A stretch of 64,000 nt of DNA from Arcobacter ellisii (GTDB taxonomy: Bacteria; Campylobacterota; Campylobacteria; Campylobacterales; Arcobacteraceae), in contig NZ_CP032097.1 in assembly GCF_003544915.1 (NCBI RefSeq), forward strand, positions 1,798,001 to 1,862,000, written 5' to 3'. Shown here piece after piece: positions 24,879-52,170 of the stretch. Within the stretch, counting starts at the first letter, position 1. Every line of letters starts with the position of its first letter. The notes beneath the pieces were generated by a model. The model was not told the origin of the DNA. It worked only from the letters and a program-made list of their open reading frames with translations, and ran no database searches. Both the position numbers and the translations under genes were made by a program.

Positions 24879-25175
24879 ATGAAAAAAATTGCACTTTTAT
24901 TTGTCTGTATCTATAGTTTTTCAATAGCTGCAGAATATGATCCAATAAGAGGAGAAATGTTAGCACTTTCATGTGCTTCTTGTCATGGAACAGATGGAAA
25001 ATCTGAAGCAATAACTCCATATATTGCAGGTATGGGAAAAACAAGTTTATATCAGACTCTACTTGATTATAAAAATGGTAAAAGAACTGAAACTATGATG
25101 CAAAAGCATGTAAAAGGTTTTACAGATGAAGAGCTTGAACAAATTTCTTACTATTTTTCAAGCATAGAAAGATAA
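24879..25175 (+). CDS. fccA: Monoheme cytochrome c subunit of flavocytochrome c sulfide dehydrogenase
   Basis: A 98-residue periplasmic class I cytochrome c. A signal peptide (residues 1-18, ending SIAA) is followed by the single heme motif CASCH near residue 29. The sixth ligand is probably the Met of MGKTSL or TMMQKH. It has one heme, whereas the purple sulfur bacterial FccA has two. It would pass electrons taken from sulfide by FccB on to the respiratory chain. fccB follows 13 bases downstream in the same operon. Confidence 0.85.
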   Translation: MKKIALLFVCIYSFSIAAEYDPIRGEMLALSCASCHGTDGKSEAITPYIAGMGKTSLYQTLLDYKNGKRTETMMQKHVKGFTDEELEQISYYFSSIER

Positions 25176-25188
25176 AAAGGAAAATACC

Positions 25189-26472
25189 ATGATAAATAGA
25201 AGAAATTTTCATAAAATAGTATTAGGAGCAACAGCTTTATCATTTACAGCATGTAGCAATACATTTGAAGATATGTCAACACCTTCAAAAAACAAACAAA
25301 GAGTAGTAATTATTGGTGGAGGATTTGGTGGTGCAACAGCTGCTAAATATCTAAGAAGATTTTCACCTGATACAGAAATTATTTTAATTGAACAAAATAA
25401 AGAATATTATACTTGTCCATTTAGTAATACTGTAATTGCAGGAATGAATCCAATTGAATATATCAAACATGATTATAAAACATTAGAAAAAAAATATAAC
25501 ATAAAAGTAATCCATGAAAAAGTAAAAAAACTTGATGGAATTAAAAATAGTGTTATTTTAGAAAATGGAAATACTATCTCTTACACAAAAGCAATAGTTT
25601 CTCCAGGAATTGATTTTAAATATGAAAAAGGTTATGTACAAGGTTCAGAAGAGTATGCACCACACGCTTATAAAGCAGGAACTCAAACTGAAATCTTAAG
25701 AAAACAACTAGAAGAGATGAAAGATGGTGGTGTTTTTGTAATGGTTGTTCCAAAAGATCCTTTTAGATGTCCTCCTGGACCTTATGAAAGAGTTTCTCTT
25801 GTAGCACACTATTTAAAAACTAATAAACCTAATTCAAAAATTATAATTCTTGACCAAAAAAATAAGTTTTCAAAACAAGCTTTATTTCAAGATGGTTGGG
25901 AACAACTTTATGGTGATATGATAGAGTGGAGAAGTTCTGAATTTGGTGGAAAAGTAATCTCTGTTGACCCAATAAATAAAATAGTAACAACAGAAGATGA
26001 AAAAGTTAAAGCTGATGTTTTAAATTATATTCCAGAACAAAAAGCTGGTCAACTTGCTTTTGATTCAAAACTTGTAATGGGTGATTGGTGTCCTGTTAAT
26101 ACAAAAACTTTTGAATCAAAACTTGTAAAAAATGTTCATGTTATTGGTGATGCTTCAATGGCAAGTCCAATGCCAAAATCAGGTTTTTCTGCTAATTCTC
26201 AAGCAAAAATAGTAGCACTTCAAATTTCAAGAATTTTGAAAAATCAAGCAGTTATAAATCCTCCTAAACTTGCAAATACTTGTTATAGTTTAGTAGCTCC
26301 AAAATATGGTATTTCAATTGCTGCTGTTTATGAAGCTCACAGTGATAAAATAATTGCAGTAAAAGATGCAGGTGGATTAAGCCCACAAAATGCTGATGAA
26401 AGTTTTAGAGCTCAAGAAGCAGAATACGCAGTTGGTTGGTATAAAAACCAAATGTCTGACATTTTTAAATAA
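25189..26472 (+). CDS. fccB: Flavoprotein subunit of flavocytochrome c sulfide dehydrogenase
   Basis: A 427-residue periplasmic flavoprotein that oxidises sulfide. The N-terminus has a twin-arginine signal (RRNFHK) and SFTAC, a possible lipobox with Cys22. The FAD-binding VVIIGGGFGGATAAKYLRR is at residues 39-57. Three Cys known in FccB are present: Cys76 in YYTCPFSN (covalent FAD site in the family), and Cys194 (FRCPPGPYE) with Cys301 (GDWCPVN), the redox disulfide pair. FVHVIGDASMASPMPKSG-like text marks the second dinucleotide fold. It pairs with fccA. A SoxF role would look alike, but no sox genes are in the window. Confidence 0.9.
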   Translation: MINRRNFHKIVLGATALSFTACSNTFEDMSTPSKNKQRVVIIGGGFGGATAAKYLRRFSPDTEIILIEQNKEYYTCPFSNTVIAGMNPIEYIKHDYKTLEKKYNIKVIHEKVKKLDGIKNSVILENGNTISYTKAIVSPGIDFKYEKGYVQGSEEYAPHAYKAGTQTEILRKQLEEMKDGGVFVMVVPKDPFRCPPGPYERVSLVAHYLKTNKPNSKIIILDQKNKFSKQALFQDGWEQLYGDMIEWRSSEFGGKVISVDPINKIVTTEDEKVKADVLNYIPEQKAGQLAFDSKLVMGDWCPVNTKTFESKLVKNVHVIGDASMASPMPKSGFSANSQAKIVALQISRILKNQAVINPPKLANTCYSLVAPKYGISIAAVYEAHSDKIIAVKDAGGLSPQNADESFRAQEAEYAVGWYKNQMSDIFK

Positions 26473-26966: not shown

Positions 26967-27962
26967 CTAAGAAAAAGATTTTATCTGTTTATATTTTAAA
27001 TAGATTGTATTTACTATTTTTTCAATCTCTTCATCACTAAAAAAGCGATTAAATGCCATTTGGATTGAGTTTCTACTTGTAAGTTCATCATATCCCATAG
27101 TTTGGATTATTCTTGAAGGTTTTGATAACCCTAATGAACAACCCTCACCATTTGTTAAAAAAATATTATTAAGGGCAAGTGTTCGTATAAGTTCTCTTGC
27201 TTTTATGCTTTTTAGTGCAAAATGAAGTGAGTAAGGTAAAGTATCTTTTGGATTTACAAAAAAGTATAAATCTTCAGCAAACTTCTCTTTTAGTTTTTCT
27301 AAAAATTTCTCTTTCATCTCATAATTAAACTCTTGATTTTCTAAAGCTTCAAAACAATATTTAACAGCAAGCGTATCTATAAATCCAATATTTAAAAGTT
27401 CAAAAAGATTTTCATCTTCAAATAAAATTACTCCTGATAAGTTATAACCTGTTAATTTATAGTTATCAAAATAGATTGCATCACTAAAGTTGCAAATTTG
27501 GGCACTTGCATTTGAGATTATTTTAGCAGTTGTTAATTTTTTTACTTCTTCCAAAGAAGTGATTACAAAAGTATCCATAACATAAGAAGATAAAAAAAGA
27601 AAATCTATATTTTTACCTTCAAGTTCGTATAGATTTACTTTTCCATCTTTATTTAAACCAATCCAAATGATTTCAAAACCTAAACTTTCATATAGTTTTG
27701 CACCATTTATCAAAGCTTCACATTCACCAAGGCTTACAGCTATTTTTCCACGTAGCTCTAAAAAAAGACCTAAAAATCCCTCTTTTGAAAAAGAGAAAGT
27801 TTTTAGTTTTGAATAGCCAAATTTCTCTTTATATTTTTTAGTTAACTCTTCAAAATGAGAATTATCCACTAAACTATCAAGTGAATAATTTTCATCTATA
27901 AAATCTATTTTTATTGGATTGTATTGTAAAACATTGAGTTTAAACAAGCTCTTTTTTTCCAT
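26967..27962 (-). CDS. NifS-like protein, copy 1 (shortened cysteine desulfurase relative)
   Basis: A 331-residue protein related to PLP-dependent cysteine desulfurases but about 60 residues shorter. A Lys in FDNYKLTGY (Lys169) takes the place of the PLP lysine, and Cys275 in TNGEGCSLGLSKPSR takes that of the catalytic Cys, followed by the MGYDELTSRNSIQMAF end typical of NifS (AMG...R.S). The PLP-stacking His and the Asp/Gln pair of the classic enzyme seem to be replaced (GECEAL, SNASAQ). It may hand sulfur or selenium to FdhD, or may have lost activity. The paralogue at 32468-33460 is in the fdhD cluster. The ATG at 27962 is taken as start; a TTG at 27947 is possible. Confidence 0.7.
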   Translation of the reverse strand: MEKKSLFKLNVLQYNPIKIDFIDENYSLDSLVDNSHFEELTKKYKEKFGYSKLKTFSFSKEGFLGLFLELRGKIAVSLGECEALINGAKLYESLGFEIIWIGLNKDGKVNLYELEGKNIDFLFLSSYVMDTFVITSLEEVKKLTTAKIISNASAQICNFSDAIYFDNYKLTGYNLSGVILFEDENLFELLNIGFIDTLAVKYCFEALENQEFNYEMKEKFLEKLKEKFAEDLYFFVNPKDTLPYSLHFALKSIKARELIRTLALNNIFLTNGEGCSLGLSKPSRIIQTMGYDELTSRNSIQMAFNRFFSDEEIEKIVNTIYLKYKQIKSFS

Positions 27963-28362
27963 TTCTATTTCTAAAACAACCAAGTTGGCAATGACTTACT
28001 TGAATATCACTATTTTTAACTGTTGCACCAACTGTTTTTAGTTTACTTCTTTTTGCTTCATCCCATAAAACTTTACACTCTAAAGTTTCATGTCCCATAT
28101 AGTTTCGTTTTAGTCTATTATAAATTACGGCACTTGGGTCTTCAAATTTTAATTTTCCAAAAACACCTAATTCACAATTTGTAATTTTTATTCCCATGCT
28201 TTTCGTAATAGCACTCATTTCTATTGGTTTTCTACCAATTAATCTTGCCACTTTAAAAGCTTTTAAGCAAGATAATTTTCCTTCTTCATCTAAATTTGTT
28301 AGTAGTAACTCTTTTTGTATATTATCAAGTTCTACAACGACGTTATAATCAATACTAGACAT
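27940..28362 (-). CDS. Small Cys-rich two-repeat protein, copy 1
   Basis: A 140-residue soluble protein, almost the same as the one at 33808-34236. The sequence contains two half-repeats: C32-x3-F-x2-A ... ITNC63ELGVFG, then C96-x3-W-x2-A ... VSHC125QLGCF. The first half also reads as a helix-turn-helix (FKVARLIGRKPIEMSAI). Five Cys are C32, C63, C96, C125 and C129. I do not know a named family. It could be a metal- or sulfur-responsive DNA-binding protein or a sulfur carrier. AGGAAAA precedes the ATG, and it overlaps the NifS-like start, so the two are coupled. Confidence 0.6.
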   Translation of the reverse strand: MSSIDYNVVVELDNIQKELLLTNLDEEGKLSCLKAFKVARLIGRKPIEMSAITKSMGIKITNCELGVFGKLKFEDPSAVIYNRLKRNYMGHETLECKVLWDEAKRSKLKTVGATVKNSDIQVSHCQLGCFRNRNGKKELV

Positions 28363-28389
28363 TTATTTTCCTAAATCAGTATATACTTA

Positions 28390-28584
28390 CTACTTATTTA
28401 AAGGTTTAATTAATTCTTCAAACCATTTACTAGCATCTTCTACAGTTTCAAATCTTTTTGATTTTGCAACTTGATCTTTTCCTTCATAAAACCTAACTCT
28501 AATTCCATCTTCAACATGGTCAATCTTTGTTCTAGTGATTTTTGACATATTCAAATAAACTCTTTCATTTAATCTGACAAACAT
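28390..28584 (-). CDS. Small protein of 64 residues within the tup cluster
   Basis: A 64-residue protein (MFVRLNERVYLNMSKITRTK at the start, then a basic, beta-rich middle and an amphipathic C-terminal helix KWFEELIKPL). It has a good AGGAG site eight bases before the ATG. It sits between tupC and the copy 1 Cys-rich protein on the same strand, 27 bases ahead of the latter. No family is recognised. Conserved position in this metal cluster would suggest a role in Mo/W cofactor supply, but that is guesswork. Confidence 0.55.
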   Translation of the reverse strand: MFVRLNERVYLNMSKITRTKIDHVEDGIRVRFYEGKDQVAKSKRFETVEDASKWFEELIKPLNK

Positions 28585-28652
28585 ATTTAAACTCCTACAT
28601 TTATATTTGGATTATTTTACTTCAATATAGTTGTAATAAATCTTACAAATTT

Positions 28653-29669
28653 TTATATCCAACAGATTTTACTTAAATCAATGTTGATATTTATTTTATC
28701 TCCTGGAAATAACATCTCTTTTTGCATCTCTTCTTTAGTAACTAAAGTATTGAAATTTACCCCTGCAATTGAAAAATCTAATTGAAGATTATCTTCCTTA
28801 TCATCTTGATGAATTGAAGTTATAACACCAAGAAGAGTATTTTCACTTTTTATCTCATTACAATTCTCTTTACAAACTTTTATATCATTTGAATTTATCA
28901 TAATAACTGAATCTCTTTTTTTACTTTGACTATTTGGGATTATTAATCTTTGACCATCTATGAATACTTTTACTAAATATCCCAATTCATCTTTTATCCA
29001 AGGAGAAAAAAGAAGATTTATATTTCCATTTTCCACTAAATTTCCTTGAAACAGAGCAATTTTTTTATCACTTATATGATTTAACCAATTATAATCGTGA
29101 CTTGAAATAAATATTGTTGTGTTATATTTTTGTTTTGCAAGCAAAATTGCTTCTTTTATAAGTTGAGCTGAGTTTGTATCAACTCCCGCTGTTGGTTCAT
29201 CTAAAATCAAAACCTTTGGTCTTAATATAAGTCTTGCTGCAAGAGCAACCCTTTGGGCTTCACCACCTGAAAGCTGACTCCATTTTCTTTTTGAAAAATC
29301 ACTATCAAGTCCTACTAAAGCTAAAGCTTCATCTACTTTTTCTTTTAAATTTTCATTTTCGTCTCTTATTTTTAAACCATAAGCAATATTTTCAAATACA
29401 CTTCTTTTTAAAAGGTATGGATTTTGAGGAAGAATTACTATACTTTTTTTTATTTCTGAATCAATTTTATTTGAATCATCAAAAAGTATTTCACCTTTTG
29501 TTGGTTTACAAATAAAAGAGAGTAATGAAAAAAGTGTTGATTTTCCACTTCCATTTGGTCCAAAAAATCCAATAATTTGATTTTTATGTAAAATTAAATT
29601 CTCTATATTTAAAACTTTTTTTCCATCATAATAGTGTTCTATATTTTTTAATTCATATAAAATACTCAT
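28653..29669 (-). CDS. tupC: Tungstate ABC transporter ATPase
   Basis: A 338-residue ABC ATPase. Walker A (GPNGSGKST, about residues 36-44), the Q-loop, signature LSGGEAQRVALAARL, Walker B VLILDEPTAG and the switch His (SSHDYNWL) are present. A C-terminal part beyond residue 240 resembles a Mop/TOBE oxyanion-binding domain (VITSIHQDDKEDNLQLDFSI). It powers TupB. The ATG at 29669 overlaps the tupB stop (ATGA), so they are translationally coupled; an in-frame ATG at 29678 sits too close to the AAGGA site. Confidence 0.88.
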   Translation of the reverse strand: MSILYELKNIEHYYDGKKVLNIENLILHKNQIIGFFGPNGSGKSTLFSLLSFICKPTKGEILFDDSNKIDSEIKKSIVILPQNPYLLKRSVFENIAYGLKIRDENENLKEKVDEALALVGLDSDFSKRKWSQLSGGEAQRVALAARLILRPKVLILDEPTAGVDTNSAQLIKEAILLAKQKYNTTIFISSHDYNWLNHISDKKIALFQGNLVENGNINLLFSPWIKDELGYLVKVFIDGQRLIIPNSQSKKRDSVIMINSNDIKVCKENCNEIKSENTLLGVITSIHQDDKEDNLQLDFSIAGVNFNTLVTKEEMQKEMLFPGDKININIDLSKICWI

Positions 29670-30361
29670 TGAACCCATTTCCTTTTTAATATTGTTAAAG
29701 AGATATTAACCATCAAAGCAACAGCAAATAAAACTAATCCTAAAGCAATTCCTGTTACAAACTCACCTTTTCCTGTTTCAAGAGAAATTGCTGTTGTAAT
29801 AGTTCTTGTATGATATTTGATATTTCCTCCAACCATCATAGAAATACCAATTTCTGTAATAATTCTTCCATAAGCAGTCATAGCAGCTGTCATAAGTCCA
29901 AATCTAGCTTCAACCAAAGTAGCTTTTAAAATCTGATATGAACTTGCTCCCAAACCTTTAAGTGATAAATACAATCTTTTATCAACCATCTCAACTTGAG
30001 CAGCTGTTAAAGCAATAATTATTGGTAAACCTAAAAAGATTTGTCCAATAATTATTGCTTTTTGAGTAAAGAGTAAATTATATTCACCAAATACTCCAGC
30101 TTGAGATAAAGAGGTATATACAACAAGTCCAATAACAACCGTTGGAATTGCTAAAAAAGTATCAACAATAGTTCTAATAATAGTTTTTCCAGGAAATTGA
30201 TAATATCCTAATAAAAAACCTAAAGGAAGCCCTATTAATAAACTAATAAACAATGACCAAGAAGAGACTGTTACTGTTACACTTATTGCTGAATATACAC
30301 TTTCATTGCCAGAGACAAGAAGCTGTATAGCTTCTTGAAAACCATCAGTAAATAAATTCAT
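29666..30361 (-). CDS. tupB: Tungstate ABC transporter permease
   Basis: A 231-residue permease with about five or six membrane helices. The ABC EAA-type loop reads LKGLGASSYQILKATLVEARFGLMTAAMTAYGRIITEIG near residues 135-175. The layout matches TupB, the permease of the TupABC tungstate importer. It lies between tupA and tupC, with four bases of overlap to tupC. In C. jejuni the equivalent system is specific for tungstate; the same is inferred here. Confidence 0.88.
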   Translation of the reverse strand: MNLFTDGFQEAIQLLVSGNESVYSAISVTVTVSSWSLFISLLIGLPLGFLLGYYQFPGKTIIRTIVDTFLAIPTVVIGLVVYTSLSQAGVFGEYNLLFTQKAIIIGQIFLGLPIIIALTAAQVEMVDKRLYLSLKGLGASSYQILKATLVEARFGLMTAAMTAYGRIITEIGISMMVGGNIKYHTRTITTAISLETGKGEFVTGIALGLVLFAVALMVNISLTILKRKWVQ

Positions 30362-30382
30362 TCTTTACTCTTACCTTTTAAT

Positions 30383-31195
30383 CTATTTTTTTGCGTTTGG
30401 TGTAAAAAGTGGTTTTTCTAAAAGTTTGAAATCACCTATTAGTTTTTGTGTTTCATCTTTTACTATCCAGTTTGTAAAATCTTTTGCTAATTGTGTTTTA
30501 GTTTTTGGACATCTATCTTTATTTACAGTAATTACACTATATTGATTAAATAAAACGTTATCGTTTTCAACAACTATTTTCATATTGTTTGCTTCACCTT
30601 TTTGTGACTCATATTTAATCCAAGTTCCTCTATCTGTTAGTGTATAACCACCTTTTTCTGATGCCATATTAATAGTTGCTATCATTCCTTGACCTGTTTG
30701 AATATACCAAGTATCTTTTTCTGGCACAATTTTGCTTACTTTTTCCCACATACCCAACTCTTTTTGGTGAGTTCCTGAGTTGTCTCCTCTACTTATAAAT
30801 TTTGCATTTTTTTCTTTTATAGTTTTAAAAGCTTCTGCTGTAGTTTTTCCTGATATATCTGCTGGGTCACTTACAGGTCCAATAATTACAAAATCATTAT
30901 ACATAACTTCATTTCTATCAACACCAAAACCTGCATCAACAAACTTTTTTTCAGCTTCAGGAGCATGAACTAATAAAACATCAACATCACAATTTTCACC
31001 CATTTTTAAAGCTTTTCCAGTTCCAGTTGAAACCCATTTTAAAGTAGTTCCAGTCTCTTTTTCAAATTGTGGAGCTAAATAATCAAGCAATCCCGTATCT
31101 TCTGTACTTGTTGTTGTTGCCATCATTAATGTATCTGCAAATAAACTACTCGCTATTACTACACTTAATCCTAAACTTGCTAAAACTTTTTTCAT
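30383..31195 (-). CDS. tupA: Tungstate-binding periplasmic protein
   Basis: A 270-residue periplasmic binding protein with a signal peptide (residues 1-20, cleaved near SLFA). The mature start has the TupA motif TTTSTEDTGLLDYLAPQF, followed by TGTGKALKMGENCDVDVLLVHAP and MYNDFVIIGPVSDPADI, and SRGDNSGTHQKELGMW. The TTTS motif and these blocks separate TupA from ModA molybdate-binding proteins. It supplies tungstate to TupBC for the formate dehydrogenase cofactor. Twenty-one bases separate it from tupB and from moeA upstream. Confidence 0.92.
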   Translation of the reverse strand: MKKVLASLGLSVVIASSLFADTLMMATTTSTEDTGLLDYLAPQFEKETGTTLKWVSTGTGKALKMGENCDVDVLLVHAPEAEKKFVDAGFGVDRNEVMYNDFVIIGPVSDPADISGKTTAEAFKTIKEKNAKFISRGDNSGTHQKELGMWEKVSKIVPEKDTWYIQTGQGMIATINMASEKGGYTLTDRGTWIKYESQKGEANNMKIVVENDNVLFNQYSVITVNKDRCPKTKTQLAKDFTNWIVKDETQKLIGDFKLLEKPLFTPNAKK

Positions 31196-31216
31196 TTTTC
31201 TTCCTTTTTTATAGAT

Positions 31217-32464
31217 TTAATTTAAAATATCAATATTTTCTTCAAAAAATTTACCATTAAATTCAAGAAGTTTTATCTCTTGATTTTGATTTATATTTGA
31301 AGTTTGTTCATTTGTTACTAAAATTGAATTACTTTCATATAAAACCGTAATCATTCCAGAACCATATTTATTATCTCTCGTTACAAAAAATTCACCATTT
31401 TGAACTTTTCCTAAAACTACATTTACCCTCCCTGCTTTGGTTTTAAACTCTTTTTGATTTATTGCTTTTATAAAACCATGATTTATAGAAGTTTCTCCTT
31501 GAAGTTTTTTTAGCATTGGTAAAGCAAATAAATAGATATTTACCATTGCAGTTAGTGGATTTCCAGGTAAACAAATTACCACTGTATTTTGCATTTTTCC
31601 CATCATAATAGGACGACCTGGTTTTATATTTACTCCATGAAAAGCTACTTCTAAACCATTTTGCAAAAATGCTTCACCTACAAAATCAGCATCTCCCATA
31701 GAAATTCCACCTGTACTTATGATCACATCATAATTTTTTAAATCTTTTATATAAGTCTTTGATTCTTCCAAATTATCAGGAATTACTCCACAATATGTGG
31801 CATCAAAATCTTTCTCTTTTAATAATGAAATCAATGCATAAGAATTACAGTTATAAATCTCTTCATCATCTGCATATTCCCAAGGCTCTTTTATCTCATT
31901 TCCAGTTGATAAAACGGCTATTGAAATTTTTTTATAAACTTCAATTTTTATCAAACCTTGAGAAGCTAATAGTGTAATAAATGAAGAAGTTATTTTTTCA
32001 CCTTTTTTTAATATAACACTTCCCTCTTTTTGTTCCTCACCTTTTAGTCTTAGATTTGAGCCTTTTTTTATTTCAATGGGAATTTTTACACTATTTTGTG
32101 TCACATCAAAACAGTTTTCTATTGGAATAATCGTATCAGCATCAAAAGGAACTTTTGCTCCTGTCATGATTTTATAACACTCATTTTCTTTTAAAGTTGG
32201 CTCTACTTTTTCACCTTTATCCCCTGCAAAAATCACTTTATTTATACTCAAAGTTTTTCCAGCATCACTGAATTTTATGGCAAAACCATCCATTGCAGAG
32301 TTATTAAAAGCTGGTAGATTTTTTACACAAATTACATCTTTACTTAAAACTCTTCCTATTGCATCACTAATTGGAATTATCTCTTTAAATGTTGTTTGAT
32401 TCACTAAATCTAAACTTTTTTGTCTTGCTATTTCAAAATCTAAATAGTTTAATTTTCCATGCAT
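31217..32464 (-). CDS. moeA: Molybdopterin molybdenumtransferase MoeA
   Basis: A 415-residue enzyme that inserts molybdate or tungstate into adenylylated molybdopterin. Visible blocks are NLPAFNNSAMDGFAIKF near residue 55, IMTGAKVPFDADTIIPIE, SVAVLSTGNEI-type text (IAVLSTGNEIKEP), IISTGGISMGDADFV, GVNIKPGRPIMMGKMQNTVVICLPGNPLTAMV and a C-terminal domain. Length is normal. The AAGGAAA site precedes the ATG. Its position between tupA and the NifS-like gene links metal uptake to cofactor loading in one transcript, and may favour tungsten. Confidence 0.93.
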   Translation of the reverse strand: MHGKLNYLDFEIARQKSLDLVNQTTFKEIIPISDAIGRVLSKDVICVKNLPAFNNSAMDGFAIKFSDAGKTLSINKVIFAGDKGEKVEPTLKENECYKIMTGAKVPFDADTIIPIENCFDVTQNSVKIPIEIKKGSNLRLKGEEQKEGSVILKKGEKITSSFITLLASQGLIKIEVYKKISIAVLSTGNEIKEPWEYADDEEIYNCNSYALISLLKEKDFDATYCGVIPDNLEESKTYIKDLKNYDVIISTGGISMGDADFVGEAFLQNGLEVAFHGVNIKPGRPIMMGKMQNTVVICLPGNPLTAMVNIYLFALPMLKKLQGETSINHGFIKAINQKEFKTKAGRVNVVLGKVQNGEFFVTRDNKYGSGMITVLYESNSILVTNEQTSNINQNQEIKLLEFNGKFFEENIDILN

Positions 32465-32467
32465 TTT

Positions 32468-33460
32468 TTAATTTCCTTGATTTAAAACTTTTATTTGTAA
32501 ATATTTTTTAGCTATTTTATTTACTACTTTTTCTATTGTTTGCTCATCATATTTTTCACTAAAACTCAAAGTTATAGCGTTTCTACTTGTAGTTTCATCA
32601 TATCCCATAACTTGAATAACTCTTGATGGTTTCGATAATCCCAAAGAACATCCCTCTCCATTTGAGATATAAATTTCATCTAAAGCCAAAGTTCGTATAA
32701 GTTCCCTTGCTTTTATGTTTTTTAGTGCAAAATGAAGTGTATAAGGTAGAGTTTGTTTATTATCAACAAAAAAATAGACATCATCTTTTAAAATATTTTG
32801 AAGTTTTTCTTTAAATATCTCTTTTGTAGTTGTTTCAAATTTTTGATTTTCTAAAGCTTCTAAAATATTTTTTAAAGCTATTACATCTTTTGATGAAATA
32901 ACTTGTTCTTCAAATAAATCATTACTAAAAAGTATCAAACTATGTGTAAAAAATCCTGTTAATTTATAAGCATCAAAATATATAACATCACTATTATTAT
33001 CAAAAAAAGCACTTGCATTTGAGATTATTTTTGCAGATGTAAGTTTTTTTACTTCTTCTAAAGAAGTTTTCACAAAAGTATCCATAACATAAGAAGATAA
33101 AAATAAAAAATCTATATTTTGATTTTCTAATTTTGAGATATTTACATTTCCATCTTTTAATAAATCAAGATAAACTATTTCAAATCCTAAACTCTCAAAA
33201 AGATTTGCTGCATCAATTAAACTTTGAGTTTCTCCAAGGCTAATAGCAATTTTTCCTTTTTTATTAAGTTCAAGTAAAAGACCTAAAAATCCATTTTTAC
33301 AAAAAGAAAAATAGTTAATATTTTCAAAAGAATATTTAGATAAAAACTCTTTTTCAAGCTCTAAATATTTTTGATTATCACTTAGAATATTTAATGATAA
33401 TTCAGAGTTAATATGCAAATTTTGCATATTATTATATTGTAAGAAATTAAGTTTATACAT
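32468..33460 (-). CDS. NifS-like protein, copy 2 (shortened cysteine desulfurase relative)
   Basis: A 330-residue paralogue of the protein at 26967-27962, roughly half identical by eye. It keeps Lys166 (FDAYKLTGF) in the PLP-lysine position, Cys271 (SNGEGCSLGLSKPSR) in the catalytic position and the MGYDETTSRNAITLSF end. As in copy 1, the usual His (here GETQSL) and Asp/Gln (here SNASAF) of the active site are replaced. It overlaps modE by eight bases. A perfect 21-base palindrome lies inside its first codons, encoding residues NMQNLHI. The start at 33460 is ATG; the TTG one codon earlier is rejected. A sulfur or selenium donor for FdhD is the leading idea. Confidence 0.7.
   Translation of the reverse strand: MYKLNFLQYNNMQNLHINSELSLNILSDNQKYLELEKEFLSKYSFENINYFSFCKNGFLGLLLELNKKGKIAISLGETQSLIDAANLFESLGFEIVYLDLLKDGNVNISKLENQNIDFLFLSSYVMDTFVKTSLEEVKKLTSAKIISNASAFFDNNSDVIYFDAYKLTGFFTHSLILFSNDLFEEQVISSKDVIALKNILEALENQKFETTTKEIFKEKLQNILKDDVYFFVDNKQTLPYTLHFALKNIKARELIRTLALDEIYISNGEGCSLGLSKPSRVIQVMGYDETTSRNAITLSFSEKYDEQTIEKVVNKIAKKYLQIKVLNQGN
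33410..33430. repeat. 21-base palindrome, copy A (inside NifS-like copy 2)
   Basis: A perfect palindrome, AATATGCAAA mirrored around one T by TTTGCATATT. It lies within the coding sequence about 30-50 bases after the start codon of the second NifS-like gene. The same 21 bases, plus two flanking T bases, recur at 35028-35048. Such a long exact match suggests a protein-binding site rather than chance. Confidence 0.6.
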
Positions 33461-33824
33461 CAATATTTTCCTTTGTTTTTATTAACTCTTTGTCTAAAAA
33501 AAGCTCTTTAAATCTCTGTTTTGAATAATTTTTTATATCTTCATCAAGAGTTTTATATAGATTCATCAACTCTTTTGCTTTAGAAGTGAGTTTTGTTCCA
33601 CTATCCTCACCTCTTCCTTTTTTTGTAATTACCAAATCATCTTCTATATACTCTTCAAGTATTTTTATATGACTCCATGCTTTTTTATAGTTCATTCCAA
33701 CTTTTTTTGCGGCTTCACTAATAGAACCTGTTTCTTCGATTTGTCTTAAGATTTCAGTCTTTCCACTTCCAAAGATGAGATTTTTATTCTCATCTTCAAT
33801 CCAAACTTTAACTTTTATTTCCAT
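33453..33824 (-). CDS. modE: ModE-type regulator lacking the molybdate-binding domain
   Basis: A 123-residue protein with a winged-helix N-terminus as in ModE: FGSGKTEILRQIEETGSISEAAKKVGMNYKKAWSHIK (residues 18-55), then a wing with KKGRGEDSGTKLT. The C-terminal MopI-type molybdate-binding domains of E. coli ModE are absent, as known for Campylobacter ModE. It probably regulates molybdate/tungstate uptake or formate dehydrogenase genes. It overlaps both neighbours (17 bases with the small Cys-rich protein, 8 with the NifS-like gene). How it senses metal without the domain is open; the adjacent small Cys-rich protein is a candidate partner. Confidence 0.88.
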   Translation of the reverse strand: MEIKVKVWIEDENKNLIFGSGKTEILRQIEETGSISEAAKKVGMNYKKAWSHIKILEEYIEDDLVITKKGRGEDSGTKLTSKAKELMNLYKTLDEDIKNYSKQRFKELFLDKELIKTKENIDV

Positions 33825-34236
33825 CTTTATGACCTTTTTTTTCTCTAAAACACCCTAGTTGACAATGAATAACTTCAATATCTGAATTTTTCACAGTTGA
33901 GCCTACTGTTTTTAAAGATGAATTTTGGGCTTCATCCCATAAAACTTTGCACTCTAGGGTTTTATGTCCCATATAATTTTGTTTTAATCTATTATAAACT
34001 TCTATATTTGGGTCTTGAAATTTTAATTTCCCAAAAACACCTAATTCACAATTTGTAATTTTGATACCCATACTTTTAGTAATTGAACTCATCTCTTTGG
34101 GATGTTTTCCAATAAGTCTTGCTACTTTAAAAGCCTTTAAACAAGAGAGTTTCCCCTCTTCATCTAAATTTGTAAGTAATAACTCTTTTTGAATAGAATC
34201 TAACTCTATTTTAAAATCATCATCAATACTAGACAT
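33808..34236 (-). CDS. Small Cys-rich two-repeat protein, copy 2
   Basis: A 142-residue paralogue of the protein at 27940-28362, around 80 percent identical over the first 130 residues by eye. It carries the same ITNCELGVFGKLKF and IHCQLGCF blocks and the same Cys positions (32, 63, 96, 125, 129). It starts inside the end of fdhD (eight-base overlap) and overlaps modE, so it belongs tightly to the fdhD-modE unit. The C-terminal tails of the two copies differ. The function is unknown; options are a regulator with a helix-turn-helix or a sulfur-relay partner of FdhD and the NifS-like protein. Confidence 0.62.
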   Translation of the reverse strand: MSSIDDDFKIELDSIQKELLLTNLDEEGKLSCLKAFKVARLIGKHPKEMSSITKSMGIKITNCELGVFGKLKFQDPNIEVYNRLKQNYMGHKTLECKVLWDEAQNSSLKTVGSTVKNSDIEVIHCQLGCFREKKGHKDGNKS

Positions 34237-35017
34237 CTATTCTTCCACTATGTGTATAAAGATTCATTTTTTTACCTCGTGCAAAACCTATTAGAGTTAT
34301 TCCATGTTTATGTGCTGTTTGAACACCCAAATATGTTGGTGCAGTTCTTGATACAACAAGTGGGATTCTGTGCATAACTGCTTTTGTAACCATTTCTGAA
34401 CTTAATCTTCCACTTACAAATAAAACAGATTTTGTTGTATCTAATCCTTGAAGTTTACATTTTCCAATTGCTTTATCAATTGCATTATGTCTTCCAATAT
34501 CCTCAGCCGTTACAGTTGTTCCATCAAGTAAATAAATCATTGCTTTATGAACACAACCTGTTAAATTATAAAGTTCGCTTTCTTGATAAAATTTCTTAAC
34601 TTCTGTATAAATAGTTTCTGGTTTTATTTTAAAAGAAGTTTGATTAAATGGGATTTCTAAACTTCCTTCAATATTTCCAGTAACTCCGCCACCACAACCA
34701 CTTACTAAAGTTTTTTCTTTATATAAATTTTGTAGTGAATTTTCATCTATTTTTGCTTTTACATCTACTCTTAATCCATCTTCGCTAATTGTAAGTTCTT
34801 CTATGTCAGCAATAGAAGAGATTACATTTTCACTCATTAAAAAACCAATAGCGTGGGCGTCTTGGTCTTTTGGAATACACATCATAGATATGGCTTTTTC
34901 TCCGTTTAAATAAAGGTTTAATCGTGACTCTTCAATTGTCACATCTTCAACCATAGTTGCTTCATTTTCTATAAGTTTGTCAATTACTACTGTTTTTAAA
35001 TATTTAGCGTTGTCCAT
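34229..35017 (-). CDS. fdhD: Formate dehydrogenase accessory sulfurtransferase FdhD
   Basis: A 262-residue protein that moves sulfur from a cysteine desulfurase to the molybdenum or tungsten cofactor of formate dehydrogenase. Landmarks are VSGCGGGVTGN with Cys108, LTGCVHKAMIYL, TVTAEDIGRHNAIDKAIGK and FVSGRLSSEMVTKA. Where E. coli FdhD has a CxxC, only one Cys remains (C-G-G-G). The ATG at 35017 has an AAGGAAAG site. The 21-base palindrome lies 11 bases upstream of the ATG, so expression of this and the genes behind it may be controlled apart from fdhABC. Confidence 0.93.
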   Translation of the reverse strand: MDNAKYLKTVVIDKLIENEATMVEDVTIEESRLNLYLNGEKAISMMCIPKDQDAHAIGFLMSENVISSIADIEELTISEDGLRVDVKAKIDENSLQNLYKEKTLVSGCGGGVTGNIEGSLEIPFNQTSFKIKPETIYTEVKKFYQESELYNLTGCVHKAMIYLLDGTTVTAEDIGRHNAIDKAIGKCKLQGLDTTKSVLFVSGRLSSEMVTKAVMHRIPLVVSRTAPTYLGVQTAHKHGITLIGFARGKKMNLYTHSGRIDV

Positions 35018-35087: not shown

Positions 35088-36050
35088 CTATTTTCTTAAA
35101 CTCTTATCTTCTTCTAAAACATCAGGTCTTAACTGTTCTAGATATTCAATTGGTAACTTTCCAGTAATTACACCTGGAATATAACCTTTTACAGAAACGA
35201 AATATGAATATACCGTTTCAAATGTAAAAAATGAAATAATCGCACTACCCATAAAATGGATAAATAAAATAAATCTTTTTATTTGTATAGTTTGAGCATG
35301 AGTTGCTGCATCTGGAAACATATACCAAATCACAAATCCACTAAAAACTAAAAGTGAACCAAATGCCACATACATATAATAGTTTATTCTATCCATGTGT
35401 TGATATTTCCCTCTAAGGAAAATTTTATTCCAAATTTTTGCACTTGGTCGAACAAAAAACTTATGATCTTTAAAAGCAATTATTGTCATAATAAACCAAA
35501 TTGGCATCCAACCTAGTCCAATTATTTCATGCGTTGCTCTCATAAGTCTTGGAATATATCCACCACCAGTCCAATTTCCAAATGTGATTGAAAATCCAGT
35601 GATAAATAGATAAATCATAATTACAATATTTAATAAAATAACTATTCTTTGAAAAAGCGAATAAACTTGCACTTTGTCATTTTCTCTAGTAATTTCTGCT
35701 TGTTTTCTTCCTTTTGCTACAATGAACATAGTTAAAAATAGAAAAAATTCAACTAAAAATACTATTGGTAGTAAATGTTGTCTCTCTTCAAATGCTCTTA
35801 TAACCTCTGGCGCAATTGCATTATAATTTGGTCCAAAAAGTCCTACTTCCATTTGTTGATATTGTGTTAAACTCTCAAATGGAAGTACTTGTCCAGTAAA
35901 ATTACCCTTTAACATTTGCATCAAAAACTGATATACATAATTTATATCAGCAATTGTTGCTAACCAAAAATACCAATAAGTCAAAAGGATGAATAAAAAG
36001 CCTACTATTAAGTAAGCCTTATATTCACTTAGAAAACTTTTATTTTCCAT
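35088..36050 (-). CDS. fdhC: Formate dehydrogenase cytochrome b subunit
   Basis: A 320-residue membrane protein with about five hydrophobic segments (residues 15-35, 115-135, 155-180, 195-215 and 285-310), matching the gamma/cytochrome b subunit of periplasmic formate dehydrogenases. Histidines in THEIIGLGWMPIWF and LFIHFMGSA are likely heme ligands. It takes electrons from FdhB and reduces quinone. The ATG at 36050 overlaps the fdhB stop by 11 bases; ATGs further upstream lie inside fdhB without a ribosome site. Confidence 0.88.
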   Translation of the reverse strand: MENKSFLSEYKAYLIVGFLFILLTYWYFWLATIADINYVYQFLMQMLKGNFTGQVLPFESLTQYQQMEVGLFGPNYNAIAPEVIRAFEERQHLLPIVFLVEFFLFLTMFIVAKGRKQAEITRENDKVQVYSLFQRIVILLNIVIMIYLFITGFSITFGNWTGGGYIPRLMRATHEIIGLGWMPIWFIMTIIAFKDHKFFVRPSAKIWNKIFLRGKYQHMDRINYYMYVAFGSLLVFSGFVIWYMFPDAATHAQTIQIKRFILFIHFMGSAIISFFTFETVYSYFVSVKGYIPGVITGKLPIEYLEQLRPDVLEEDKSLRK

Positions 36051-36654
36051 ATGCTTTATCCCAACCATAAGGTGCCGATTGTGTTCCATGCCCAGAAGAC
36101 ATTACTCTTTGTCTGAAAATATTTGATACAGACTCAGAATCTCCAACTAATAGAGCTTTTGTTGAACACATAGCTGCACAAACTGGAACTTTACCTTCAG
36201 CAATTCTATTTTGCCCATAAAGTTCTCTTTCATGTTCACTATTTGTTTCATCAGGACCACCAGCACACATTGTACATTTATCCATAACACCTTTAGTTCC
36301 AAATGCTCCATTTTTAGGGAACTGTGGAGCTCCAAATGGACAAGCATATAAACAATATGAACAACCTATACATTTATTTTTATCATGAAGAACTATTCCA
36401 TCTTCTCTGATATAAAAACAATCAACTGGACAAACTTGTTCACAAGGTGCATCAGTACAATGCATACAAGCAACAGATAAAGAAAACTCCATCCCTTGCT
36501 TACCTTCATTTACAGTTATAACTTTTCTTCTACTAATTTCTACAGGTAACTCATGTGCTTCGGCACAAGCAACTGAACAACCATCACAATGAATACATCT
36601 ATTTTCATCGCAATAGAATCTCATTCTTGCAAAATCTAATTTATTATTACTCAT
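36040..36654 (-). CDS. fdhB: Formate dehydrogenase iron-sulfur subunit
   Basis: A 204-residue ferredoxin-like subunit. Four Cys groups for [4Fe-4S] clusters are visible: RCIHCDGCSVAC near residue 20, ACMHCTDAPCEQVCP near residue 60, KCIGCSYCLYACP near residue 95, and KCTMCAGG with PVCAAMCSTKA further on. It transfers electrons from FdhA to FdhC. There is no separate TAT signal, so it probably leaves the cell bound to FdhA. An AGGAG site precedes the ATG at 36654, 11 bases after the fdhA stop. Confidence 0.93.
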   Translation of the reverse strand: MSNNKLDFARMRFYCDENRCIHCDGCSVACAEAHELPVEISRRKVITVNEGKQGMEFSLSVACMHCTDAPCEQVCPVDCFYIREDGIVLHDKNKCIGCSYCLYACPFGAPQFPKNGAFGTKGVMDKCTMCAGGPDETNSEHERELYGQNRIAEGKVPVCAAMCSTKALLVGDSESVSNIFRQRVMSSGHGTQSAPYGWDKAYGK

Positions 36655-36664
36655 GTTACTTCTC

Positions 36665-39487
36665 CTAAGCTCTTGAAATCTGACATAAACCACCTTTTGT
36701 TTCAGGGATTTGTGTAACTATGTCATAACCGTAGTTAGTAACTGTATTAGCACTCTCTCCTGTTGCATAAGGCAATGTTCCATCTGGATATTTATTGCTT
36801 AAATCAACACCTTCCATTACACCTGCAAAGTGAATTGGAATAAATACTCTATCAGGAGTTACAGAATATGAATAATGAGCTTTAACTTTAATTTTACTTC
36901 CTTGAGGTGAATGAATCCACATCATAGAGCCATCTCTAATTCCATATCTTCCTGCTAAATCAGGGTTAATATCACAGAACATTTCAGGAGTTAATTTTGC
37001 TAAATATTTACTAGCTCTATTTTCAACACCCGCACCATTCATATTTACAAGTCTTCCAGTTACTAAATTTATTGGGAAATCTTTTGCCCAATCTTGTTTA
37101 GTTTGTTCACTAATATATCTTGTATCAACTCTGAAGTGATTTGGTTTATCTGCAAAACTTGGATAATCTTTTACTAAATCTGTTCTTGGTGAATGTAATG
37201 GCTCTCTGTGTTTTGGAATTGGGTCAGCCCATTGCCAAACTTTTGCTCTTGCTTTTGCATTTCCATAAGGAGCGATTCCCGCCTCAATACATTTTTCAAC
37301 AATCAAGTTAGATTTATCAACTTTCCAGTTTGCACCCATTTTTGCTTTTTCATCTTCACTTAAAGTAATTTTTAAAACAGCTTCAATGTTCTCTTTTGTA
37401 ATTTCAGGATAACCACCATCTTGAACTCCACCAACTGGTGCTGAACCTTTAGGTGTTAATAATGAAACTCCCTCATGCTCTAATCCAAAGTTTTGTCTAA
37501 ATCCCATACCACCGAATTTAACTGGTTTTGAAATATCATAAAGATTTGGACTTCCTGAATGTTTTGTTGTCCAACAAGGCCATGGTAAACCATAATATTC
37601 CCCTGTCATTTCACCATAACCAGCAAGTGAAATCTCATCAAACATGTGCCAATTATCAGTATGTTTTTTAAGTCTATCAGCCGTCCATCCAGTCAAACCA
37701 ATAGTTTTAATAATTCTTGATATTTCATTTGTTGCATCTTCTGGCCAAATAAAATCTTTACCTTTACCCATACCAGCTGTTAATTGCTCATAAAACCCTA
37801 ATCTTTTTGCCAATTCAAACATAATATCTTGGTCAGCTTTTGATTCATACATAGGTTTAATAACTTCATATCTCCATTGACCACTTCTGTTTGTTGCAGT
37901 TACTGAACCTGCTGTTTCAAACTGAGTTGCTGCTGGTAAAATATAAACATCATTTTGCTTATCAGTAATAATCGCACCCTCATTTACAAATGGGTCACAA
38001 AATACTGCTAAATCTAGTTTATCAAGTGCTTCTTTTACTTTTTTTGTTTGAGCAGTAGAAGTGATTCCATTACCCATTACAAATAAAGCTTTTAGATTTG
38101 TTCCAGCATTATGAATTACATCTTCACCTTCATTTCCACCTAAAACTCCAGCCCACCAACGAGCAAGTGTAAATCCATTTTTACCCATCCATTCAGGTGA
38201 TTTAAATCTTGTTTTTAACCATTCAAAATCAACTCCCCAAGAAGAAGCAAAATATTTCCATGAACCTTCAGCTAAACCATAATATCCAGGAAGCGAATCT
38301 GATAAACAACCAAAGTCTGTTGCACCTTGAACATTATCATGACCTCTTAAAATATTAGTTCCACCACCTGCAACTCCCATGTTTCCAAGAGCAAGTTGTA
38401 AAATTGGAGCTAATCTTGTATTAGAAGTTCCCACTGTATGTTGAGTTAAACCCATAGCCCATACTAAAGTTCCTGGTTTTGCTGAAGCATATAATTTAGT
38501 AATTTGAACTATTAAATCAGCTTTAACACCTGTTACATCAGCAACTCTTTCAATTGGCCAATTTTTAGCTTCAGCCATTATCTCTTCCATTCCATAAACT
38601 CTATTATTAATAAAGTCTTGGTCATGCCAACCATTTTCAAAAATGATATTTAACATTCCATACATAAATGCAATGTCAGTACCTGGTCTAATTTGTGCGT
38701 ATAAATCTGCTTTTGCAGCAGTTTTTGTGAATCTTGGATCTATAACAATAATTTTTGCATTATTTCTTTCTTTTGCTTTCAAGAAATGTTGAAAACCAAC
38801 TGGATGATTTACCGCTGGATTTGCTCCAAAAATTATAATTGCTTTAGAGTTTTGAATATCTCCTAAAGAATTTGTCATAGCACCATAACCCCATGTATTT
38901 GCCACACCGGCAACTGTTGAGCTATGTCAAATTCTAGCTTGATGATCTATGTTATTTGTTCCAAACATAGCAGCAAATTTTCTGTAATAATATGCTTGCT
39001 CATTATTGAATTTTGCTGACCCTAAAAACATTACTGAATCAGGTCCATCTTTTTGTCTTAAATTTTCAAGTTTTGAAGCAATCCCATCTAAAGCTTCATC
39101 CCATGAAATTCTTTGCCATTTTCCATCTTTTTTCACCATTGGGTGTTTAACTCTTACCTCTGATCTAACCATATCAATCATATCGGCACCTTTACAACAA
39201 TGTCCCCCAAGTGATACAGGATGATCTTGAGCAACTTCTTGTCTTACCCACACACCATTTTGAACCTCAGCAATAACACCACAACCAACTGAACATGCTG
39301 TACAAATAGTTTTAACCATTTTTGAACCAGGAAAAGGATTTTTAATCTCTTCTTCTGTCGCTGCTCTAGTTGCTGGTGTACTTGCAAAAGACGATGTAAC
39401 TCCAAATGCCGTTGCAACAGCAGCCATTTTCATAAATGACCGTCGTCCTACTTTTGCATTCAAAGCTTCATATGTATTTGCTGACAT
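36665..39487 (-). CDS. fdhA: Selenocysteine formate dehydrogenase catalytic subunit, with in-frame UGA
   Basis: A 940-residue Mo/W-bis-MGD enzyme that oxidises formate to CO2 in the periplasm. The frame has one TGA at 38927-38929 (residue 187) in NNIDHQARI-U-HSSTVAGVANTWG, the known Sec site that coordinates the metal. A hairpin follows the TGA and selABCD are in the window, so this is readthrough, not a frameshift. The N-terminus has a twin-arginine signal (GRRSFMK, Arg15-Arg16), and Cys62, Cys65, Cys69 and Cys97 bind the [4Fe-4S] cluster. The ATG at 39487 has an AGGAG site. Two separate frames result if the TGA is read as stop. Confidence 0.95.
38899..38929 (-). promoter_or_regulatory. Sec UGA codon and bSECIS hairpin of fdhA
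   Basis: On the minus strand the UGA (38927-38929) is followed after 13 bases by the hairpin TTGCC-GGTGT-GGCAA (38913-38899), a five-base-pair stem with a G-rich apical loop. E. coli fdhF has a similar stem with a GGU-containing loop at the same distance, where SelB binds. Confidence 0.8.
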
Positions 39488-39812: not shown

Positions 39813-40541
39813 TTAGTTTTTCGGTCCTAAAGCTTTTAAAGCTCTATTTCTTTCTCTTCTTTGTCTCTCTTCATCTGAAATATCTCCCCAATTATCACCT
39901 TGCTTTTTGATAATTCTCTCTTTTTTAAGTGGTTTTGAAACTTCAAGATATAATCTTTCAAACTCAACAAATGAATGTAAAACAACCATTAATTCTTTAT
40001 AAATATTTGATTTATCATGTTCATAAATATCTTTTGCAAACTCATCAATAAACTCATTTAAAATCTGTGCAAAAATACAATGAACTGTATTTCCATACTC
40101 TTTTTGTCCATTTGCTAATATATCAGATAATTCAGCCATCAATGAAAAGATAAATCCAACTGAATCTTCATATTCATAATAGTTTTTTTCATCTCGTCTA
40201 AGTTTTGTTTTTGAAATAAACTCTATCATTTCAACTCTTTTTTTACCTGATTCAACACCTTCATCATAAAAAGAGGCTGTTTGTCTAATTTTTTCATTTA
40301 ATGGATTATGGAATAAATCATCAAATTCTTGAAGTAAAGCAACATTTGAAGAAGAATCTAAAAGTTTTGAAATATTAGTTAAGGCTTCTGCTGAACTCTC
40401 GTCCAAAGGATTTTCTTTTAAAATATTTAACAATTTAATTAATTCAAAATAGTTTTCACTTTTTGGACTAACCACAAAAAAGTTTGCAAAAAAATTGTAA
40501 TATAAAGCTCTAGCTTTGTTAATTATTTGATTATCTTGCAC
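39813..40541 (-). CDS. TorD/DmsD-like molecular chaperone
   Basis: A 242-residue, all-helical cytoplasmic protein. It resembles TorD-family chaperones: ARALYYNFFANFFV at the start, an acidic middle (EFDDLFHNPLNEKIRQTASFYDEG) and the HCIFAQILNEFIDEFAKDIY segment. Such proteins bind TAT signals of molybdoenzymes and hold them for cofactor loading. Here it likely serves FdhA. The start is GTG at 40541 with AAGGATT before it. It starts four bases past the stop of the upstream polyferredoxin gene. Confidence 0.78.
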   Translation of the reverse strand: MQDNQIINKARALYYNFFANFFVVSPKSENYFELIKLLNILKENPLDESSAEALTNISKLLDSSSNVALLQEFDDLFHNPLNEKIRQTASFYDEGVESGKKRVEMIEFISKTKLRRDEKNYYEYEDSVGFIFSLMAELSDILANGQKEYGNTVHCIFAQILNEFIDEFAKDIYEHDKSNIYKELMVVLHSFVEFERLYLEVSKPLKKERIIKKQGDNWGDISDEERQRRERNRALKALGPKN

Positions 40542-48574: not shown

Positions 48575-49612
48575 ATGAACAATGAATATAAACTAACAAA
48601 ATTCGTTCAAGCTGCTGGTTGAGCTGCAAAGATGGGTCCGGGGGACCTCAAACAAACAATTTGCCACTTAACACCAGATGATGAAAGAATTTTAGTAGGA
48701 TTTGATACAAGTGAAGATGCTAGTGTTTATCAAATAAATGAAAACCAAGCTATTGTTCAAACACTTGATTTTATTACTCCAGTTGTAGATGACCCATATA
48801 TTTATGGGCAAATAGCTGCTGCAAATGCACTTAGTGATGTATTTGCTATGGGAGCTGATGTTAAAACAGCCATGAATATAGTAGGTTTTGATAAAAAAAA
48901 TATATCAAAAGAGGCTTTAGGTCTTATATTAAATGGTGGAAATGAAAAAATCAAAGAGTGTGGAGGAGTTCTTTTAGGTGGTCATACTATTGAATCACCT
49001 GAGATGTATTATGGATTATCAGTAACTGGAATGATAGAACCAAATAAGGTAATAAGAAATAATACTCCAAAAATTGGGCATGTTTTAGTTTTAACAAAAC
49101 CTCTTGGAATGGGTATTTTAACAACAGCCATAAAAAGGGATTTGATTGATATTAACCTAATAAAAGAGTGCGCAAAAATAATGTCAAGTTTAAACTACTT
49201 GCCATCAAAAATTATGAGAAAATATGAAGTAAGTTCTTGTACAGACATTACAGGTTTTGGGCTTATGGGACATGCTTTAGAGTGTACAAATGAAATGGTT
49301 ACTTTTAGTATCTCTTGTAATAATGTTCCAGTGGTGATTGAAGCAATTGAATTAGCAAATCAAGATGTAATTCCTGGTGGAACAAAAAGAAATATGAAAT
49401 ATACAGAAGATAAAATCACATATTTAAACAATCTTCCAAACCATTGTAAGGCAATTTTATGTGATGCACAAACTTCAGGTGGTTTATTAATAGCTATGAA
49501 AGAAGATGACGCTAAAGAGTATATTAAAGAGCTTGAAGAGTTAAGTTTTGGATATGCAACTATTATAGGTCATGTAATCCCAAGGGGAATAACACCGATA
49601 ATTGTTCATTAA
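48575..49612 (+). CDS. selD: Selenophosphate synthetase, itself a selenoprotein
   Basis: A 345-residue enzyme that makes selenophosphate from selenide and ATP, the selenium donor for Sec-tRNA. The frame contains TGA at 48620-48622 (residue 16) in FVQAAG-U-AAKMGPGDLK, where E. coli has a catalytic Cys. The Lys after it, DFITPVVDDPYIYGQIAAANALSDVFAMGA and GCGGVLLGGHTIESPE-like blocks complete the family. Without readthrough the product would end after 15 residues. The mRNA forms a hairpin after the TGA. Translation of this enzyme depends on its own product. Confidence 0.95.
48620..48648 (+). promoter_or_regulatory. Sec UGA codon and bSECIS hairpin of selD
   Basis: The UGA (48620-48622) is followed after 11 bases by the hairpin GGGTCC-GGG-GGACCT (48634-48648), with a six-base-pair stem including one G-U pair and a G-only loop. 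This segment is GC-rich against the AT-rich surrounding sequence, supporting selection on structure. Confidence 0.8.
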
Positions 49613-49642
49613 ATAAAAAAGAGTAAAAACTCTTTTTTATTT
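49611..49642. terminator. Bidirectional terminator between selD and the Sel1-repeat gene
   Basis: A perfect 14-base-pair inverted repeat (arms 49611-49624 and 49629-49642, loop AAAA) overlaps the ends of both convergent genes and has A- and T-runs for termination in either direction. Confidence 0.85.
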
Positions 49643-50095
49643 ACAAAGTTCTGGATTTTCTTCGCAGATTGTTTGAAGATTTTCTTTTGCTTCTGCGTGT
49701 CCTTGAGAAGCTGCTTGTTTATAATATTTTATAGCTTTTTCAAAATCTTGTTCAACTCCAATTGCATTTTGATACATAGTTCCAAGATTAAATTGTGCTT
49801 CTGCATAACCTTTTTTTGCAGCTGATTCAAAAAGTTTTAAAGCCTCTTGATAAGATTGTTCAACTTCAGACCCAGTTGCATACATATTTCCTAAATCATT
49901 TTGAGCTTTAACATCACCTTTTAAAGCTTTTTCTTCTGTTATTTCAAAAGTTGATTTAATTTCATTATTTTGTGTTTGTTCAGTTTTTTCAACCTGAGTT
50001 TTTTCAATAGGTGTTTCGCCATTAGATTTATCTAAATATACAGCACAACCTACAATAATTGCCAAGATTGCAACACCTAAAACTACTTTTTTCAT
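49637..50095 (-). CDS. Sel1-repeat lipoprotein-like protein
   Basis: A 152-residue protein. The N-terminus MKKVVLGVAILAIIVGC has the shape of a lipoprotein signal with lipobox IVGC. After a Glu/Thr-rich linker, two Sel1-like repeats follow: AQNDLGNMYATGSEVEQSYQEALKLFESAAKKG and AQFNLGTMYQNAIGVEQDFEKAIKYYKQAASQG, which build helical pairs for protein contacts. Sel1 repeats have no link to selenium despite the name. GAGGGAAAT precedes the ATG at 50095. Confidence 0.8.
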   Translation of the reverse strand: MKKVVLGVAILAIIVGCAVYLDKSNGETPIEKTQVEKTEQTQNNEIKSTFEITEEKALKGDVKAQNDLGNMYATGSEVEQSYQEALKLFESAAKKGYAEAQFNLGTMYQNAIGVEQDFEKAIKYYKQAASQGHAEAKENLQTICEENPELCK

Positions 50096-50167
50096 TATTT
50101 CCCTCTTTTTATACAAAGATAATTTTTAGTTTTTATTTTTGTAATAATACCATTTATTTAAAAAATT

Positions 50168-50494: not shown

Positions 50495-50738
50495 AAAATA
50501 AATTCCTTCTAATATTTATCAATAAATTCTAATGTCCAAAAGTAGGTAAAAAGTGTGTTTTTATTATCAATAACTTCTTCAAATCTTTTAAATTATCAAA
50601 TATTATTCTTTATATTCGAAAACCCATATTATAAAATCTATAAACAATTTTTATTAAATCTAATTATTAATTCAAAAAAGAGTCTTTTCTGAGTCATTTG
50701 AAAGTTATAATAGTTAGAAATCAAAGACAAGGAAGAAA

Positions 50739-52168: not shown

Positions 52169-52170
52169 TA

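Follow-up and report, generated by a model that had tools for sequence, protein, structure and literature searches.

A degenerate NifS-like protein and a small four-cysteine protein linked to FdhD in the formate dehydrogenase loci of Arcobacteraceae

In Escherichia coli, the NifS-fold protein IscS is paired with FdhD in the sulfuration of the formate dehydrogenase (FDH) cofactor; IscS has desulfurase activity and serves many clients, and its FdhD partner carries a CXXC motif. The sulfur route for FdhD proteins that lack CXXC is described as open (PMC6239281). Archaeoglobus fulgidus IscS (PDB 4hvk, 4r5f, 4eb5), which works with IscU in iron-sulfur (Fe-S) assembly, has no desulfurase activity and donates a Cys ligand to the cluster (PMC7585200). 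Selenocysteine lyase and the NifS-like selenium donors to SelD form a further group of relatives. On the regulatory side, deletion of Campylobacter jejuni modE (cj1507c) abolishes FDH activity in rich medium and complementation restores it, which led the authors to propose that ModE does more than repress (PMC11237541). C. jejuni ModE represses mod and tup alike though the usual metal domain is missing (PMC7011364), and a passage of the same source, citing Taveirne 2009, describes the protein as lacking a metal-binding domain. Here we compare these systems with two gene pairs in a 64,000-nucleotide stretch of the Arcobacter ellisii genome (G000:C1:1798001-1862000; Arcobacteraceae), the whole of which is called the window. 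Each pair encodes a degenerate NifS/IscS-like protein (NifSL) and a small Cys-rich protein (CRP). Comparison across genomes shows CRP and NifSL as FdhD-linked families, and we tentatively read the pair as an FDH-maturation unit, made up of an FdhD-linked, loop-Cys sulfur adaptor and a CRP factor with redundant copies, at a probability of roughly 40%.

Both pairs lie on the - strand with tupABC and moeA between them, as the initial annotation had described. Copy A consists of CRP_A (27940..28362) and NifSL_A (26967..27983), which overlap by 44 bases, and copy B of CRP_B (33808..34236) and NifSL_B (32468..33463). The two CRPs are 79% identical, close to the 80% first estimated by eye, and the two NifSLs 60% identical rather than about half. 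Copy B, first taken for a bare pair, contains an overlooked open reading frame (ORF; 33453..33824, - strand) between CRP_B and NifSL_B, encoding a ModE-type winged-helix protein of 123 amino acids. CRP_B overlaps by 8 bases with fdhD (34229..35017, - strand), the gene for the FDH chaperone/sulfurtransferase, in which SGCG replaces CXXC; all FdhD proteins examined lack CXXC and have SGCG or SGCC instead. The order FdhD-[CRP]-[ModE]-NifSL was found again in more than 40 Arcobacteraceae loci, and the arrangement is therefore not due to chance. Among 64 genomes, NifSL was present in 37/39 with FdhD and in 2/25 without it (Fisher p 6e-13, a value that is indicative only, as related genomes are not independent). 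Together with the position of CRP beside fdhD in loci that lack ModE and Tup, this sustains the initial proposal of a link to FDH and molybdenum/tungsten (Mo/W) cofactor maturation.

The AlphaFold model of NifSL (pLDDT 94.2) has the cysteine desulfurase (aminotransferase class-V) fold (Foldseek 4.6e-18 to NFS1; VIA Z 28.0, root-mean-square deviation 3.0 over 314 residues). The A. fulgidus IscS entries come first among the structural matches by VIA (Z 28.0), tied with human NFS1 (Z 27.9), and selenocysteine lyase is also among the top fold matches. Seven residues are invariant in 53 NifSL sequences; Cys272, which lies in the active-site loop and which hhalign pairs with the catalytic Cys of NifS, is present in 53/53. 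The remainder of the site that would bind pyridoxal phosphate (PLP) is degenerate, with changes of His to Ser/Thr/Cys and of Asp to Asn and with Gln and Ser lost, and in the window copies the N-terminal segment bearing the SGATES-type phosphate loop is deleted. Alignment with desulfurases thus upheld the first description of these proteins, in which the Lys and Cys positions were kept and His and Asp/Gln lost. The pattern differs between lineages: Lys167, at the Schiff-base position, is found in 36/36 Arcobacteraceae sequences and in 2/17 others. Arcobacteraceae NifSL has kept this Lys and lost His, Asp (now Asn) and the phosphate loop, whereas Helicobacteraceae NifSL has mostly kept His and Asp/Glu and lost the Lys. 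On these alignments both lineages fall short of a complete PLP site, each through losses of its own, and NifSL is probably not a desulfurase. Family scores are low, with a best NCBIfam score of 43-50 bits vs desulfurase cut-offs of 304-643, and the Pfam Aminotran_5 cut-off (21.5 bits) is reached by NifSL_B only (26.9 bits). It is very unlikely, in our estimation, that NifSL functions as an atypical cysteine desulfurase dedicated to FDH, with Lys167 binding PLP in Arcobacteraceae. The presence of both Lys167 and Cys272 in 36/36 of these sequences and the high confidence of the fold would fit such an enzyme, but His, Asp, Gln and Ser have been lost along with the phosphate loop, the Lys is absent from Helicobacteraceae NifSL and a canonical NifS is encoded elsewhere in the same genome.

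Among described proteins the nearest likeness is to A. fulgidus IscS and Methanosarcina acetivorans IscS1, which share the IscS fold and have kept the active-site Cys but lost the catalytic Lys, as has Helicobacteraceae NifSL. NifSL is, however, shorter, only ~14% identical, tied to FdhD, MoeA or SelAB and encoded at a locus without an IscU partner. The likeness to the E. coli pair lies in a NifS-fold protein standing with FdhD, but here the homologue is degenerate and the FdhD has SGCG or SGCC. With the selenium donors to SelD, NifSL has the fold and the loop Cys in common, and in Helicobacteraceae it adjoins selAB; it differs from them in its degenerate PLP site and in its presence in genomes without SelA.

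These last points bear on a selenium-specific explanation, in which NifSL would carry a Cys-perselenide to SelD, giving selenophosphate and then selenocysteine (Sec) in FdhA, and the link to FDH would be indirect, FDH being the main selenoprotein. In many Helicobacteraceae the NifSL gene comes immediately after selA-selB, two genomes of this family (G062, G067) have SelA/SelB/SelD and NifSL without FdhD or a Sec-containing FDH, nearly all FDHs neighbouring NifSL contain Sec, and selenocysteine lyase is, as noted, among the top folds. Against this, Arcobacteraceae NifSL adjoins fdhD and moeA rather than sel genes. The complete genome G317 has an FdhA with Cys (TGT) and lacks SelA but has kept FdhD-CRP-NifSL; SelD, SelB and tRNA-Sec were not found in its syntenic stretch, the rest of this genome not having been searched for SelD. 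In G310, FdhABC is gone from the locus and SelA is absent, and FdhD-CRP-NifSL is again kept. Furthermore, Sec is used in Campylobacter without NifSL, and G049 and G178 have kept Sec genes in the absence of NifSL. We consider the selenium explanation rather unlikely overall: NifSL is not purely a selenium donor, because it is kept with a Cys-FDH in a genome without SelA. A strict selenium role for Arcobacteraceae NifSL is ruled out by G317 and G310, and a strict FDH role across the whole family by G062 and G067. The gene content of these four genomes leads us to prefer an FDH/FdhD role for Arcobacteraceae NifSL, with a selenium role possible in Helicobacteraceae. In one Helicobacteraceae locus (L172) both gene contexts are united in a single run, selA-selB-fdhD-ModE-HTH-NifSL-moeA, where HTH denotes the helix-turn-helix domain. 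Cys forms of the usually Sec-bearing FdhA also occur at L128 (3834-6635) and L144 (11267-14065; genome G341), the latter with Sec and Cys forms adjacent.

CRP forms a family of Campylobacterota, in which it was present in 111/298 genomes. Four residues (C32, C63, C96 and C125) are invariant in 79/79 sequences, and C129 is found in 94%. The predicted model (pLDDT 84) consists of two similar small helical repeats in tandem with two invariant Cys each. No significant match to CRP was obtained among PDB sequences, solved structures, Pfam or NCBIfam, weak Pfam/NCBIfam matches being attributable to chance, and comparison of the model with the PDB returned homeodomain-like helices only (Foldseek E 0.3, VIA Z about 5). 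A scan of genome contigs, with the best 80 of 173 loci kept, gave matches almost solely in Campylobacterota; since its patterns were derived from Campylobacterota motifs and the loci were limited in this way, the result does not establish absence elsewhere. The lone 'Pseudomonadaceae' match (L210) looks like contamination. Some Arcobacteraceae carry second CRP copies alone, apart from FDH genes (L069 6781-7188, L073 6830-7237, L074 6556-6942 and L104 5510-5857); those of L074 and L104 align to the first part of the family only and appear shortened.

The partnership of CRP with ModE-type proteins takes several forms. In Arcobacteraceae the two are separate neighbouring genes, whereas in sampled Campylobacter, Sulfurospirillum-like and other genomes CRP and the HTH form a single protein of ~245 amino acids encoded after fdhD. 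In Desulfurellales loci the HTH fused to CRP is degenerate, and a Cys-FDH is present at L246. In loci from genomes assigned to C. coli and C. jejuni, ModE is a CRP::ModE fusion: the first ~130 residues of C. jejuni ModE (Cj1507c) are homologous to CRP, with the four invariant Cys, and are followed by the same type of HTH. Its gene stands after fdhD, as CRP_B does here, but it is one fused protein where the window has two separate genes and an extra CRP copy without an HTH. The ModE-type protein of the window appears to share the winged-helix DNA-binding domain of canonical ModE (TIGR00637 70.6 bits, E 9e-20) but falls under the family cut-off of 98.5; the TOBE/Mop molybdate-binding domain was not found in it with Pfam or NCBIfam, and a canonical full-length ModE is encoded elsewhere in the same genome. 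The initial annotation knew of no description of the module, and this must be amended for CRP, which is the N-terminal half of a protein whose deletion is FDH-null (PMC11237541). It stands for NifSL, of which we found no account in the literature searched, which reached few subscription journals.

With this homology CRP becomes a direct candidate explanation of the modE phenotype: loss of a repressor does not explain the FDH-null state, and the comparison suggests that a role of CRP in FDH biogenesis would. It could instead be argued that CRP does nothing but sense, as the Mo/W (or Fe-S) sensor portion of a ModE split in two, NifSL being its structural partner and neither taking part in maturation. 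CRP is indeed fused to or beside a TOBE-less ModE-type HTH, the tup genes lie downstream in operons such as that of the window, and the repression of mod and tup by C. jejuni ModE, which is without the usual metal domain (PMC7011364), is in keeping with it. We nevertheless think this unlikely. The loss of FDH activity on modE deletion in rich medium is unexpected for the loss of a repressor (PMC11237541), the genome has its full-length ModE, and CRP adjoins fdhD without any HTH (as at L070, L071 and L093) in the second of two Arcobacteraceae operon types, which lacks ModE and tup, and at one other locus. CRP therefore appears to be more than a mere part of a regulator.

The maturation unit that we favour may be pictured as follows. 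NifSL would be a non-catalytic IscS/NifS descendant which still offers a mobile active-site-loop Cys and probably docks with the SGCG or SGCC form of FdhD. Ordinary NifS would mobilize the sulfur, and NifSL would pass or coordinate it toward the Mo/W-bis-molybdopterin guanine dinucleotide (bisMGD) cofactor of FDH; in Helicobacteraceae the cargo is perhaps selenium. CRP would act as a maturation factor at the same step through its four invariant Cys and, where fused to or co-encoded with ModE, could couple the maturation state of FDH to the transcription of Mo/W uptake genes. Either copy alone would be enough, the retention of both reflecting redundancy after an operon swap. Several observations weigh against this picture. 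Campylobacter has an active FDH without NifSL and several genomes with type-2 operons have no CRP, and thus neither part is universally needed; NifSL was not detected in two genomes with FdhD (G135, G233), and the Helicobacteraceae genomes G062 and G067 keep it with Sec genes alone. The invariance of Lys167 in Arcobacteraceae may leave some PLP chemistry possible, and the C. jejuni modE phenotype could be transcriptional instead. A bolder version, which we regard as speculative and unlikely, is a maturation checkpoint, in which the PLP-less desulfurase homologue and CRP would give sulfur to CXXC-less FdhD while the same CRP domain, through its ModE half, would signal free Mo/W or incomplete cofactor to the transport genes, so that one protein would join sulfuration and metal uptake.

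The presence of two copies finds its explanation in the history of the locus. Arcobacteraceae have two FDH operon types in the same chromosomal slot, with the common flanks FccAB, DinB, YdhR-like, DRE-TIM and RNase H; ModE belongs to type 1, in most cases together with Tup or a different anion transporter, and type 2 has neither. The FdhD tree divides cleanly by operon type (support 100/99). In the NifSL tree the type-1 sequences include NifSL_B and the type-2 sequences NifSL_A (100/99), whose sister is the G317 copy (99/89). CRP gives a concordant tree, with weak support for the placement of CRP_A. The window has a full type-1 operon followed by CRP_A-NifSL_A. Since the trees separate the copies and the flanks are common to both types, comparison shows copy A as a remnant of a type-2 operon that was replaced by a type-1 operon. 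Purifying selection acts on copy A (dN/dS 0.15-0.19 vs G317, with about 0.15 for NifSL_A), although the divergence measured may mostly be older than the swap. G301 has kept NifSL_A, and NifSL_B is cleanly missing from its type-1 operon (13 bases from ModE to MoeA); in the closest relative, G302, NifSL_B is kept and copy A absent, and G357 carries the two. The trees and flanks show operon replacement and rule out a tandem duplication with a different metal duty for each copy, and the relatives with one copy only are evidence against the early suggestion of one copy for each metal or chalcogen, which we abandon.

On the - strand the type-1 operon of the window begins with a TorD-family chaperone of the type-1 form (39813..40541; 242 amino acids; family match and operon comparison), followed by the FDH catalytic subunit FdhA (36665..39487), with an in-frame TGA at the Sec position (38927-38929), and by the FeS subunit FdhB (36040..36693) and the cytochrome b subunit FdhC (35088..36089), both assigned from gene order. 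After FdhD, CRP_B, the ModE-type HTH and NifSL_B come the molybdopterin molybdotransferase MoeA (31217..32464; a Pfam/NCBIfam-type family match), the tungstate-binding protein TupA (30383..31195; NF041772, 363 bits vs a cut-off of 400), the tungstate permease TupB (29666..30361; conserved between TupA and TupC in type-1 loci) and the tungstate ABC transporter ATPase TupC (28653..29678; best family NF041774, below cut-off). An ORF of 64 amino acids (28393..28584) marks the operon end, beyond which lie CRP_A and then NifSL_A. Across Campylobacterota this small ORF recurs in loci of FDH, tup and SelD with 60-94% conservation, is placed after TupC in type-1 loci and after CRP::ModE in Campylobacter, and had no match in Pfam or NCBIfam. 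Between NifSL_A and FccB an ORF of 118 amino acids (26519-26875, - strand) is absent from every other fetched locus. The FccA-like cytochrome c and FccB-like flavoprotein (24879..26472, + strand) form the flank shared with type-2 loci. SelD, SelA and SelB (48590..55511, + strand) and tRNA-Sec (52175-52269, - strand) lie ~10-15 kb from the FDH operon, and SelD (48590-49510) is itself probably a selenoprotein, as it has an in-frame TGA. Searches of plasmids, Rfam and PHROGs with window material gave nothing informative, and a promoter scan gave a signal no higher than in shuffles.

CRP and NifSL are thus two conserved Campylobacterota families outside the curated libraries, no Pfam or NCBIfam family covering either, and one of them is probably a desulfurase pseudoenzyme that has lost its PLP site via different residues in two lineages. 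Their variants, with Sec or Cys in FDH, with copy A or B and with CRP and ModE split or fused, are natural experiments. Both are candidates for the sulfur path to CXXC-less FdhD, which the literature has left open, and CRP offers a candidate answer to a published puzzle, namely why deletion of C. jejuni modE should be FDH-null though ModE is a repressor.

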